In this document: piece by piece, positions 33,019-36,365 of the stretch
Layout: every line of letters starts with the position of its first letter
Position numbering within the stretch: the first letter of the stretch is position 1
Assembly: GCF_026011795.1 (NCBI RefSeq)
Contig: NZ_BRVS01000003.1
Coordinates: 62,001 to 126,000, forward strand
Origin: Arthrobacter mangrovi
GTDB taxonomy: Bacteria > Actinomycetota > Actinomycetes > Actinomycetales > Micrococcaceae
DNA length: 64,000 nucleotides
Reading direction: 5' to 3'
The notes under the pieces: model-generated
Seen by the model: the letters and a program-made list of their open reading frames with translations, nothing else
Databases searched by the model: none
What the model was told of the DNA's origin: nothing
Translations under genes and position numbers: made by a program

Positions 33019-33327
33019 ATGAATACGGTCCGGTCTCCCCGGAAGCCGCCGCAGCGTACCTGCATTGGCTGCCGGAAGCAGGATGACCAGCCCGGCCTGC
33101 TGCGTTTGGCCATCGCGCCGGACGGCCTTGGTGCCGTCGTCGTCGATCTCCGCCGCCGCTCGCCCGGGAGGGGTGCCTGGTTGCACCCGGATTCCGCGTG
33201 CATGGCCTTGGCTTTGAAGCGGCGTGCCTTCAACCGAGCCTTTAGGGGTAAAGTTGATAGCCGCGCCGTCGAAAGCTACTTCAGCGCGCGAACAACCGTC
33301 CAACCTGAAAGCGGGTCAGAAAACTGA
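33019..33327 (+). CDS. YlxR family RNA-binding protein (DUF448)
   Basis: A 102-residue basic protein. The family core RTCIGCRKQDDQPGLLRLAI (residues 13-32) and the GRGAWLHPD segment are clear. YlxR proteins bind RNA and modulate RNase P or transcription. It is in its usual position between nusA and infB. A TAGAAT hexamer (33015-33020) overlaps its ATG, so either a promoter for downstream genes or coincidence. Its stop overlaps the first of a chain of minicistrons (33327-33446). Confidence 0.93.
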   Translation: MNTVRSPRKPPQRTCIGCRKQDDQPGLLRLAIAPDGLGAVVVDLRRRSPGRGAWLHPDSACMALALKRRAFNRAFRGKVDSRAVESYFSARTTVQPESGSEN

Positions 33328-33335
33328 TGGAAACC

Positions 33336-33369
33336 CGATGAGTGCCAAGCGATGAGTGCCCAACGATGA
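33336..33369 (+). repeat. 14-bp tandem repeat creating the minicistron chain
   Basis: CGATGAGTGCCAAG (33336-33349) is followed by CGATGAGTGCCCAA (33350-33363) and a third, shortened CGATGA (33364-33369). Each unit carries an ATGA stop-start overlap, so the repeat itself generates the two 5-codon frames. Confidence 0.75.
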
Positions 33370-33446
33370 CTCATCTGTTGTGCACTGCTCACGGTCGTTC
33401 TCCGCAGCACCCCACGTGCGGTGCGGGAGACCGCAGCAAGAAATAG
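33366..33446 (+). CDS. Possible 26-residue leader peptide upstream of infB
   Basis: ATG 33366 to TAG 33444-33446, starting MTHLLCTAHGRSPQ. No ribosome site of its own; translation would depend on reinitiation from the preceding minicistron. It ends in two lysines and has two cysteines. No known family. It may be noncoding, but it is the last link of the chain that leads ribosomes toward infB. Confidence 0.25.
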   Translation: MTHLLCTAHGRSPQHPTCGAGDRSKK

Positions 33447-33461
33447 ACGGTTCGTACCTGG

Positions 33462-33477
33462 CTCGGTGCGGACCGAG
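33462..33477 (+). promoter_or_regulatory. Hairpin directly upstream of the infB ribosome site
   Basis: CTCGGT (33462-33467), loop GCGG, ACCGAG (33472-33477), followed three bases later by AGGAG at 33480-33484. A stem this close may shape access to the infB ribosome site. Confidence 0.35.
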
Positions 33478-33488
33478 ACAGGAGAAAT

Positions 33489-36365
33489 GTGGCCAAGGTC
33501 CGCGTACACGAGCTCGCGAAAGAGCTCGGTATTACCTCTAAAGATGCAGTTGCCAAACTGCAGGAACTGGGCGAATTCGTCCGGTCCGCCTCGTCGACTA
33601 TCGAGGCACCCGTAGTCAAGAAGCTTCGTGATGCCTACCCGGCCGCCGGTGCAAAGGGCGCAGCCGCGCCCGCCGGCCGGCAGGCGCCTGCCGGACGCCC
33701 GGCTCCCGGGCCCAAGCCCGGTGCCGCCCCGTCGCCGCGGCCGGGCGCCAAGCCCTCGCCGGCTCCGCAGGCCCCGGCGGCTTCCCAGCAGGCCGAACCT
33801 GCGGCACCGTCCGCTCCCTCGGTACCTGCCGAACCGCAGGCACCTGCCGCCCAGGCCGCACCGTCGGCTCCGGCTGAAGCGTCCGCTCCGGCCCCTGCCG
33901 AAACCCCGGCTGCTCCCAAGCCCGGTTCCGCCGCCCCGCGCCCCGGCGCCCCGCGGCCTTCCGGTCCGCGCCCGGGCAACAATCCGTTTGCCACGTCCCA
34001 GGGCATGCCCCGGGGCGGCCGCGACCGCGATTCCGATCGTGCTCCGCGTCCGGGCAACAACCCCTTCGCTACCTCCCAGGGCATGCCCCGGGGCGGCCGC
34101 GACGGCGCACCCCGTCCGGCTGCCGGCCAGGGTGGTCCCCGTCCCGCAGCGGGCCAGGGCGGTCCGCGTCCGGGCGCACCGCGTCCCGGCGCACCCCGTC
34201 CGGGAGCGCCCCGTCCGGGCGCACCCCGTCCCGGTGCCCCGCGGCCCGGCGGCGGTCCCGGTGGCGCGCGTCCGACGCCGGGCATGATGCCTAACCGCAC
34301 CGAGCGCCCGGCACCTGCCGGCCGCTCCGGCGGTCCCGGTCGTCCGGGCGCTCCCGGCCGTCCGGGCGGTGCCCCGGGTGGCGCTCCGGCCGGCGGCGGC
34401 TTCGGCAAGGGCGGCCGCGGACGCGGCGGCACGCAGGGCGCCTTCGGCAAGGGGGGCGCCGGCCGCGGCAAGCAGCGCAAGTCGAAGCGCGCGAAGCGCC
34501 AGGAACTGGAGCAGATGAGCGCACCGTCGCTGGGCGGCGTGAGCGTTCCCCGCGGCGATGGCAACACGGTTGTCCGCCTGCGCCGCGGCTCCTCCATCAC
34601 GGATTTTGCCGACAAGATCGAGGCGAACCCGGCCGCACTGGTGACCGTGCTCTTCCACCTGGGTGAGATGGCCACGGCCACCCAGTCCCTGGACGAGGCG
34701 ACCTTCGAGGTCCTCGGCGCGGAGCTGGGCTACAAGATCCAGGTTGTTTCCCCCGAGGACGAGGAGCGCGAGCTGCTCGATTCGTTCGACATCGACCTCG
34801 AGGCCGAACTCGAGGCCGAGGGCGACGCGGACCTGGAGAAGCGTCCGGCGGTCGTGACCGTCATGGGCCACGTGGACCACGGTAAGACCCGCCTGCTGGA
34901 CGCCATCCGGCACTCGAACGTTGTCGAGGGCGAACACGGCGGCATCACCCAGCACATCGGTGCCTACCAGATCGGTTTCGACCACGACGGCCGGCAGCGC
35001 CGGATCACCTTCATCGATACCCCGGGCCACGAGGCGTTCACCGCCATGCGTGCCCGCGGTGCGAAGGTCACCGACATCGCCATCCTGGTGGTCGCCGCGG
35101 ACGACGGCGTCATGCCGCAGACCGTGGAGGCGCTCAACCACGCGCAGGCCGCCGGGGTGCCGATCGTGGTGGCCGTGAACAAGATCGATAAGGAAGGCGC
35201 GAACCCGGACAAGATCCGCGGCCAGCTGACCGAGTACGGCCTGGTACCCGAGGAGTACGGCGGCGACACGATGTTCGTCGACGTCTCGGCACGCCAGAAC
35301 CTCAACATCGACGACCTGCTCTCGGCAGTCCTGCTGACCGCGGACGCGGCGCTGGACCTGCGGGCCAACCCGAACAAGGACGCCCGCGGCATCGCCATCG
35401 AAGCGAACCTGGACAAGGGCCGCGGCGCAGTCGCGACCGTGCTGGTCCAGTCCGGAACGCTGAAGGTGGGCGACACGATCGTGGCCGGCATTGCGCATGG
35501 CCGCGTGCGTGCCATGTTCGACGAGAACGGCGACCAGGTCGAGGCAGCCGCGCCGTCCCGTCCGGTGCAGGTCCTCGGCCTGTCCACGGTGCCCCGCGCC
35601 GGCGACACCTTCCTGGTGACCGACGACGAGCGCACTGCCCGCCAGATCGCCGAGAAGCGCGAAGCTGCGGACCGCAACGCCGCACTGGCCAAGCGCCGCA
35701 AGCGCATCAGCCTCGAGGACTTCGACAAGGCCGTGGCCGAGGGCAAGGTTGACACCCTCAACCTCATCCTCAAGGGCGACGTGTCCGGTGCGGTCGAAGC
35801 GCTGGAGGACTCGCTGCTCAAGATTGACGTCGGCGAAGATGTCCAGCTGCGCGTTATCCACCGCGGTGTCGGTGCGATCACGCAGAACGACGTCAACCTG
35901 GCGACCGTGGACAACGCGATCATCATCGGCTTCAACGTCAAGCCGGCCGAGCGCGTGGCCGAACTGGCCGACCGCGAAGGCGTCGACATGCGCTTCTACT
36001 CGGTCATCTACGCCGCAATCGATGACATCGAACTGGCGCTGAAGGGCATGCTGAAGCCGGAGTACGAGGAAGCGCAGCTCGGCACCGCCGAGATCCGCGA
36101 GATCTTCCGCTCCTCCAAGTTCGGCAACATCGCCGGCTCGATTGTCCGCTCGGGCACGATCCGCCGTAACTCCAAGGCGCGCGTCTCCCGCGACGGCAAC
36201 GTCATCGGCGAGAACCTCACCGTTGAGTCGCTCAAGCGGTTCAAGGACGATGCGACCGAGGTCCGCGAGGGCTTCGAGTGCGGTATCGGCCTGGGGTCGT
36301 TCAACGACCTCAAGGAAGGCGACATCATCGAGACCTACGAGATGCGCGAGAAGCCGCGCGTCTAG
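33489..36365 (+). CDS. infB: Translation initiation factor IF-2
   Basis: GTPase that brings initiator tRNA to the 30S subunit. 958 residues, large because of an Ala/Pro/Gly-rich linker (about 55-335). N-terminal IF2 domain: [21 protein letters not shown] domain: GHVDHGKT (460-467), DTPGH and NKID, all intact. The linker has a 26-residue tandem duplication and a PRPGA array (separate entries). GTG 33489 follows AGGAG at 33480-33484; an out-of-frame ATG at 33487 overlaps it. A hairpin ends the gene before rbfA. Confidence 0.97.
33973..34110 (+). repeat. 78-bp tandem duplication inside infB
   Basis: Unit 1 begins at 33973 and unit 2 at 34051, 78 bp (26 codons) apart. Both encode [20 protein letters not shown] followed by diverging residues. 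DNA differs mostly at third positions, so the duplication is old or under protein-level selection. Confidence 0.8.
34153..34260 (+). repeat. PRPGA array in the IF-2 linker
   Basis: Runs of a 15-bp unit encoding PRPGA repeated about six to seven times, with third-position variation. Typical of IF-2 linkers in high-GC Actinobacteria; probably a flexible spacer. Confidence 0.75.

Follow-up and report, generated by a model that had tools for sequence, protein, structure and literature searches.

A class-wide chain of stop-start mini-frames and competing RNA helices upstream of infB: a possible translational control element

In the leader of infB, the gene for initiation factor IF2, a chain of very short reading frames joined by overlapping stop and start codons (referred to here as the relay) is conserved across the bacterial class to which Arthrobacter mangrovi belongs. 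The position of the last stop codon of this chain is conserved as well, next to an RNA helix (helix B) whose arms covary, and one arm of this helix is also competed for by a second helix (helix C), which reaches into the infB coding sequence. We tentatively regard this arrangement as a translational control element of infB across the class, viz. a leader switch that probably serves autogenous control of IF2. No serial stop-start relay was found in the open-access papers that were searched, and the element is apparently undescribed.

The relay in Arthrobacter mangrovi

The relay was identified in a stretch of 64,000 nucleotides of A. mangrovi DNA (contig NZ_BRVS01000003.1), which is called the window here and to which all coordinates refer. 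The features of the relay region are as follows.

33019-33327, + strand: ylxR (102 amino acids), from its translation and a match to PF04296 (1.0e-21); its stop codon shares bases with the first ATG (ATG1) of the relay
33307-33317, + strand: GAAAGCGGGTC, a block 5' of frame 1 that is conserved in relatives, possibly an imperfect Shine-Dalgarno sequence
33327-33341, + strand: mini-frame 1, METR and stop, from the sequence
33338-33355, + strand: mini-frame 2, MSAKR and stop, joined via ATGA, from the sequence
33352-33369, + strand: mini-frame 3, MSAQR and stop, with an ATGA link and the second copy of a 14-bp unit, from the sequence and its repeat
33366-33446, + strand: last frame, 26 codons, with an ATGA link and the stop codon TAG, from the sequence
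33480-33484, + strand: infB Shine-Dalgarno sequence, AGGAG, from the sequence
33489-36365, + strand: infB (IF2), GTG start, from the sequence

A sequence-only reading of this DNA had described three minicistrons (METR, MSAKR and MSAQR) and a 26-codon frame joined by ATGA overlaps, and all of them lie exactly where that reading had placed them. The overlap of the ylxR stop codon with an ATG and the 42-base gap before infB, which it had also reported, are both seen in the sequence: the TGA of ylxR occupies 33325-33327 and ATG1 begins at 33327, giving the junction TGATG, and 42 nt separate the last-frame stop (TAG, to 33446), which ends one nucleotide short of helix B, from the infB GTG at 33489. 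The 14-bp tandem repeat is likewise real (33336-33369; 2.4 copies, 90% matches). The spacing ATG-N8-ATGA-N10-ATGA occurs at 3 sites in the 4.43-Mb genome, one of which is the relay, and a reversed control pattern at none; as about two such sites are expected by chance, the spacing alone is not rare, and it is the conservation that carries the argument.

Two other observations concern the surroundings of the relay. The IF2 encoded at 33489-36365 has a long stretch rich in Pro, Gly and Arg, with PGAPR repeats, C-terminal to its N-terminal domain, and the sole Rfam match of the window at the gathering threshold is an Actino-pnp RNA (RF01688; 41078-41152, 53.6 bits).

Distribution of the relay

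Leaders were located by the N-terminus of infB, for which a match was present in 115 of 119 genomes of the order, 107 of 118 of the class and 106 of 149 of the phylum, and they were taken from the matches listed (at most 30 per search) together with 80 chosen stretches, each genus or family contributing one or a few. Relatives within the family were fetched by YlxR (49 loci, one distant MAG being left out, and further genomes). Three leaders (L001, L002 and L060), 26 duplicates and L084, which is without a usable infB match, were excluded before counting; the 202 distinct in-class leaders counted include that of the window itself (L105).

Under a strict rule requiring at least three chained frames starting with ATG or GTG, no more than 8 codons in any frame other than the last, and junctions of the form NTGA or TRATG, the relay is present in 188 of the 202 distinct in-class leaders from the loci listed and the chosen stretches (family 82/87, order 44/52, class 62/63). 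The chance level is much lower: when the in-class leaders are shuffled with their dinucleotides kept, 63 of 4040 sequences (1.6%) pass the same rule. Among the matches listed from other classes of the phylum, where 95 genomes were matched, none of 19 leaders carries the relay under this rule, the infB start being placed approximately in several of them. These leaders (L233-L251) are without a relay, and in 14 of the 19 infB lies near or overlaps ylxR (gap of -23 to 27 nt, from approximate starts).

The 14 leaders that fail the strict rule are by inspection mostly near variants (fused frames, TTGA junctions, small gaps or longer chains), and two of the failures, L171 and L172, have two frames each. 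L173, from a 0.8-Mb genome, is without a relay, which was perhaps lost through genome reduction.

Sampling was deepened in the families of G235 and G250, which we take from their infB sequences to be those of the mycobacteria/corynebacteria and of the streptomycetes, respectively. After removal of 3 duplicates, the strict rule found the relay in 26 of 26 leaders in the first family (27 new loci from a search of 41 genomes) and in 24 of 24 in the second (26 new loci, likewise from 41 genomes). This result should be interpreted as a replication and not as a blind test, because both families were already known to carry the relay, a handful of leaders from each having been examined before. Loss of the overlaps in close relatives, which the sequence-only reading had named as a refutation of its proposal, is not seen; the overlaps persist there and well outside the family.

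What is preserved in the relay

A looser rule, which also allows TTG starts, finds chains in 2 of the 19 out-of-class leaders and misses 13 of the 202 in-class leaders, and the longest chains that it yields contain some spurious first frames. With this rule, 491 junctions were obtained from 189 leaders, viz. ATGA 441, GTGA 25, TTGA 10, TGATG 9, TAATG 4 and TAGTG 2. The NTGA form accounts for 476 of the 491; such overlap or contact between a stop codon and the next start is the arrangement of termination-reinitiation (TeRe) coupling. Exactly three frames are present, under the same rule, in 37 of 52 leaders of the order and 41 of 63 of the class, and in these leaders a spacing of 11 and then 14 nt is the most frequent (68 leaders); the long last frame following an extra 14-nt stage is the form seen in the window's own family. 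Across 77 family leaders the last frame has 5-36 codons, and its end lies 33-66 nt from infB in 76 of the 77, the median distance from the last stop to infB under the loose rule being 42 nt.

The peptides and the details of the junctions vary. Elsewhere in the class frame 1 often reads MGTR, MSAR or MSTR and frame 2 most often MSTQR, each followed by a stop codon. In L056, frame 3 is lengthened to 9 codons with its ATGA end retained, the lengths shifting by threes, and L085 and L095 have GTGA junctions. Where a junction is broken, a stop codon lies within a few bases of a start codon instead (L055, L059, L068 and L079), and spaced junctions such as TAACGATG occur besides the overlapping ones. 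Due to this drift of start codons, lengths and junctions while the chain persists, the reading frames, and not a fixed RNA motif, seem from these sequence comparisons to be what selection acts on. Five chained frames, including one of two codons, are seen in four leaders of one family (L113, L115, L130 and L131).

The DNA extending from GAAAGCGGGTC through the mini-frames is near-identical in many family loci whose YlxR proteins are only about 50-57% identical, and the block is also kept where ylxR crosses it in another frame (L006, L007, L012 and L032) or stops before it (L058). Among 98 distinct leaders with the 11+14 spacing, the last codon is CGA in 84 for frame 1 and in 77 for frame 2, and of this codon the A alone is required for ATGA. 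One possible reason for this bias is that weak pairing of the P-site tRNA favours the restart.

Relation of the relay to ylxR

In leaders with a core relay and a ylxR match, the stop codon of ylxR touches ATG1 in 60 of 83 cases in the family, 4 of 44 in the order and 11 of 49 in the class. In other leaders ylxR ends 5' of the relay (family 10, order 28, class 28) or within it (family 13, order 12, class 10), and it was not found in 7 of the 202. As the position of the ylxR stop relative to the relay varies in this manner, we assign the element to infB and not to ylxR. The picture drawn in the sequence-only reading, of a ribosome that leaves ylxR and enters the relay, is not supported as the main supply of ribosomes, contact with ATG1 being frequent only in the window's own family, and its "delay line" is likewise unsupported. 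Serial reinitiation ahead of infB, the other part of its proposal, agrees with the preservation of the chain.

Helices beside the last stop codon

The sequence-only reading had overlooked a switch-like RNA part, comprising helices B and C, which is located beside the last stop codon. The elements of these helices, and of a further helix A, are as follows.

33448-33458, + strand: 5' arm of helix B, from the minimum-energy fold, L105 and L003 sharing this sequence, and from covariation
33465-33475, + strand: middle arm, the 3' side of helix B, of which 33467-33474 could alternatively form helix C, from folding and covariation
33497-33504, + strand: infB codons 3-6, the 3' side of helix C, from folding and covariation
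33457-33467, + strand: 5' side of helix A, in the loop of B, with possible pairing to 33472-33482, including part of the infB Shine-Dalgarno sequence

For the helix statistics, the 188 leaders were reduced to 104 by dereplication at 80% identity. The last stop codon lies 0-4 nt ahead of the first pair of B in 87 of the 92 leaders with a stable B (104 examined). In helix B, 107 cells are changed on both sides, compared with 46.9 in shuffles, and there are 36 further pair types, compared with 26.1 (0 of 500 shuffles as high in both cases); of the five measures, only the count of doubly changed pairs, which 42 of 500 shuffles reached, is not beyond the shuffles. For helix C, the doubly changed cells number 57 against 32.7 in shuffles (0 of 500 as high), whereas its covarying pairs and pair types, two of the five measures, are not above shuffles, 310 and 239 of 500 of which reach them. 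The covariation counts of both helices, like the wobble counts given below, are inflated by the relatedness of the leaders. The paired cells amount to 78.0% for B, against at most 48.6% in slid controls, and to 81.9% for C, against at most 45.3% when slid.

The mean energy of C (-18.3 kcal/mol) is specific to its position: four coding windows further along give -12.5 to -13.1, windows further upstream give -13.3 to -9.0, and the 19 out-of-class leaders average -9.2. Synonymous recodings often match the stability of C (a median of 19.5% of recodings, and less than 5% in only 8 of 104 leaders). Helix B, with a mean of -13.0 kcal/mol, is weaker. Both helices are at or below -7 kcal/mol in 75 of the 104 leaders, where they always have at least 5 nt in common, an overlap that is partly built in because both arms were sought within the same 22-nt stretch. 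Mutually exclusive helices beside a leader frame, as in a leader-ORF translational switch, are found in these leaders with the same reservation.

The wobble position of an Arg codon matching the middle arm agrees with it in 26 of 38 leaders of the order (14.7 expected) and 38 of 44 of the class (25.1 expected); in the window's own family the count is at expectation (13 of 22; 13.0 expected). For helix A, none of 2000 permutations was as good in stability as the native pairs; this permutation count alone was used, the swapped mean being distorted by failed duplexes, and the case for A is weaker than that for B. The leader has no match to the Rfam 15 covariance models at the gathering threshold or up to an E value of 5. 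By inspection of the G235 family (L255-L281), the middle arm often reads ACCUC, which resembles an anti-Shine-Dalgarno sequence and could pair directly with that of infB, and helix B is approximately CGAGGUCG/CGACCUC.

Predicted effect of freeing the middle arm on access to infB

A ribosome at the end of the relay was mimicked in equilibrium folding of 88 of the 104 leaders by removing the last stop codon and the 12 nt after it. With the 5' arm removed, pairing of the middle arm with the coding region rises from 0.222 to 0.349 (with a gain above 0.1 in 29 of the 88 and a loss in 4), and the mean access of the start region in these 88 of 104 leaders is unchanged (0.453 and 0.462). Access of the Shine-Dalgarno sequence falls from 0.308 to 0.243 in the G235 family (5 of 31 leaders lose over 0.1) and increases from 0.610 to 0.637 in the G250 family (24 leaders). 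A first test of this access, with the 5' part blocked in 154 leaders (those of the family thinned beforehand), had given drops of more than 0.1 in 20 of 42 leaders in the family, 6 of 50 in the order and 9 of 62 in the class, and rises in 7, 18 and 9 leaders, respectively. As the mean access is unchanged and the tests in the two families are weak or opposite in sign, these results support a switch in its anatomy and not in its direction.

Proposed mechanism and alternative explanations

We interpret the leader as a case of leader-ORF control, for which autogenous control of IF2 is the leading, though unproven, purpose. From the features described above we infer that the relay is translated and that the helices switch; the direction of switching and the signal that is sensed belong to the model in the same manner. 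Ribosomes would enter at mini-frame 1 through the Shine-Dalgarno-like block, or in some lineages by coupling from ylxR; the anti-Shine-Dalgarno duplex of this block averages -8.4 kcal/mol against -6.6 in shuffles (108 leaders), a modest difference and a weak result. They would then terminate at the UGA after about four codons and restart at the overlapping start codon, repeating this until the last frame. As the last stop adjoins the 5' arm of B, a ribosome that completes the relay would cover this arm, and the middle arm, once freed, could pair with the infB start region (by forming C or, in some lineages, with the Shine-Dalgarno sequence) and thereby lower the translation of infB. If the relay is aborted, B would form first during transcription and the infB start would stay open; although B is weaker than C, its arms would be transcribed first, as in kinetic attenuators. 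Because every step needs a new initiation or risks early peptidyl-tRNA drop-off, success in the relay would report initiation-factor activity, and such a readout could place IF2 under autogenous control. Judging from the title of a 1998 paper, IF1 and IF2 reportedly remove short peptidyl-tRNAs. The more specific proposal, that serial termination-reinitiation over four- and five-codon frames forms a steep sensor of IF2 or initiator tRNA feeding back through the B/C switch throughout the class, is conceivable and should be viewed with some doubt.

The relay may instead act as an activator, in that ribosomes completing it would open the leader structure, shield the mRNA from Rho or pass to infB, so that an excess of IF2 would cause drop-off and less infB translation. 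This is unlikely, though it deserves serious consideration: the last stop is near infB (median 42 nt), in mycobacteria the AUGA coupling of ppe2 has an activating effect (PMC11260477), and peptidyl-tRNA drop-off belongs to early elongation (PMC10192219). Two weak points speak against it, viz. that the last stop adjoins the 5' arm of B and not the infB start, and that infB has its own Shine-Dalgarno sequence (mean anti-Shine-Dalgarno duplex -9.5), due to which a direct hand-over is not needed.

The better conservation of the block than of YlxR, even where ylxR crosses it in another frame, would also be expected if the GATGA repeats bound a protein or contributed to an RNA fold, the open frames being a by-product. 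However, starts shift to GTG or TTG, junction types vary and lengths move by threes while the chain persists, lost junctions are replaced by a nearby stop and start (L055, L059, L068 and L079), and the leader is without an Rfam match, which together make this explanation improbable. We consider it quite improbable that the leader is kept for transcription or processing (as a promoter, attenuator or cleavage site) and merely tolerates the relay. A WhiB7 binding peak upstream of infB in Mycobacterium abscessus, reported in PMC10727445, favours this explanation, so that some species may have a promoter there, but such a role would not keep reading frames, and a simple consensus scan of the window between 32900 and 33500 found neither a sigma-70-like promoter nor an intrinsic terminator, the latter (0 sites) being the element used by leader-peptide transcription attenuators. 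Frameshifting or stop readthrough that joins the frames into a fused peptide, in place of reinitiation, is very improbable; some readthrough fusion is described at the ppe2 AUGA overlap (PMC11260477), but junctions such as TAATG, TAGTG and the spaced TAACGATG exist here, and the peptides and lengths vary.

Comparison with known systems and significance

The mechanism that we favour, a relay coupled to a B/C switch, has likenesses to several known systems. A ribosome positioned beside mutually exclusive helices is a feature of the trp and ermC leaders. In contrast to leader-ORF attenuators and switches of that kind, no intrinsic terminator was found between 32900 and 33500 of the window, and the step proposed to be sensed is reinitiation rather than elongation. 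In yeast, GCN4 has several upstream frames, and reinitiation on them reports the status of initiator tRNA and initiation factors. The relay is similar in architecture, with sensing by it being a proposal, whereas GCN4 involves eukaryotic scanning, separated frames and a transcription-factor gene as the target. Autogenous control is also known for infC (IF3, with an AUU start) and prfB (RF2, with a frameshift); the likeness lies in a translation factor gauging its activity through the mRNA that encodes it, which for IF2 is a proposal, and the relay is a different device.

The whiB7 uORF (PMC10727445) belongs with the leaders that have a ribosome beside mutually exclusive helices. Termination-reinitiation at AUGA has been demonstrated for uPPE2-ppe2 of mycobacteria, which resembles the relay in having an ATGA stop/start overlap in an actinomycete leader and a downstream frame that depends on upstream translation; it has a single junction (PMC11260477), whereas in the relay two or more usually follow one another, the frames are very short, and infB carries a Shine-Dalgarno sequence of its own and lies clear of the last frame. 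The rimP-leader also controls the rimP-nusA-infB operon from a leader but, unlike the relay, it is a terminator motif at the start of the operon and not before infB (PMC2965389).

Leaders from across a bacterial class, including those of the presumed families of the mycobacteria/corynebacteria and of the streptomycetes, retain the element ahead of infB. If it senses initiation-factor activity, the setting of IF2 levels becomes directly testable, and the relay would provide a natural system for repeated reinitiation by the bacterial ribosome. Should the proposed interpretation be true, IF2 would join IF3 and RF2 as a factor with an autogenous circuit, and control by reinitiation over several upstream frames would have a bacterial counterpart.
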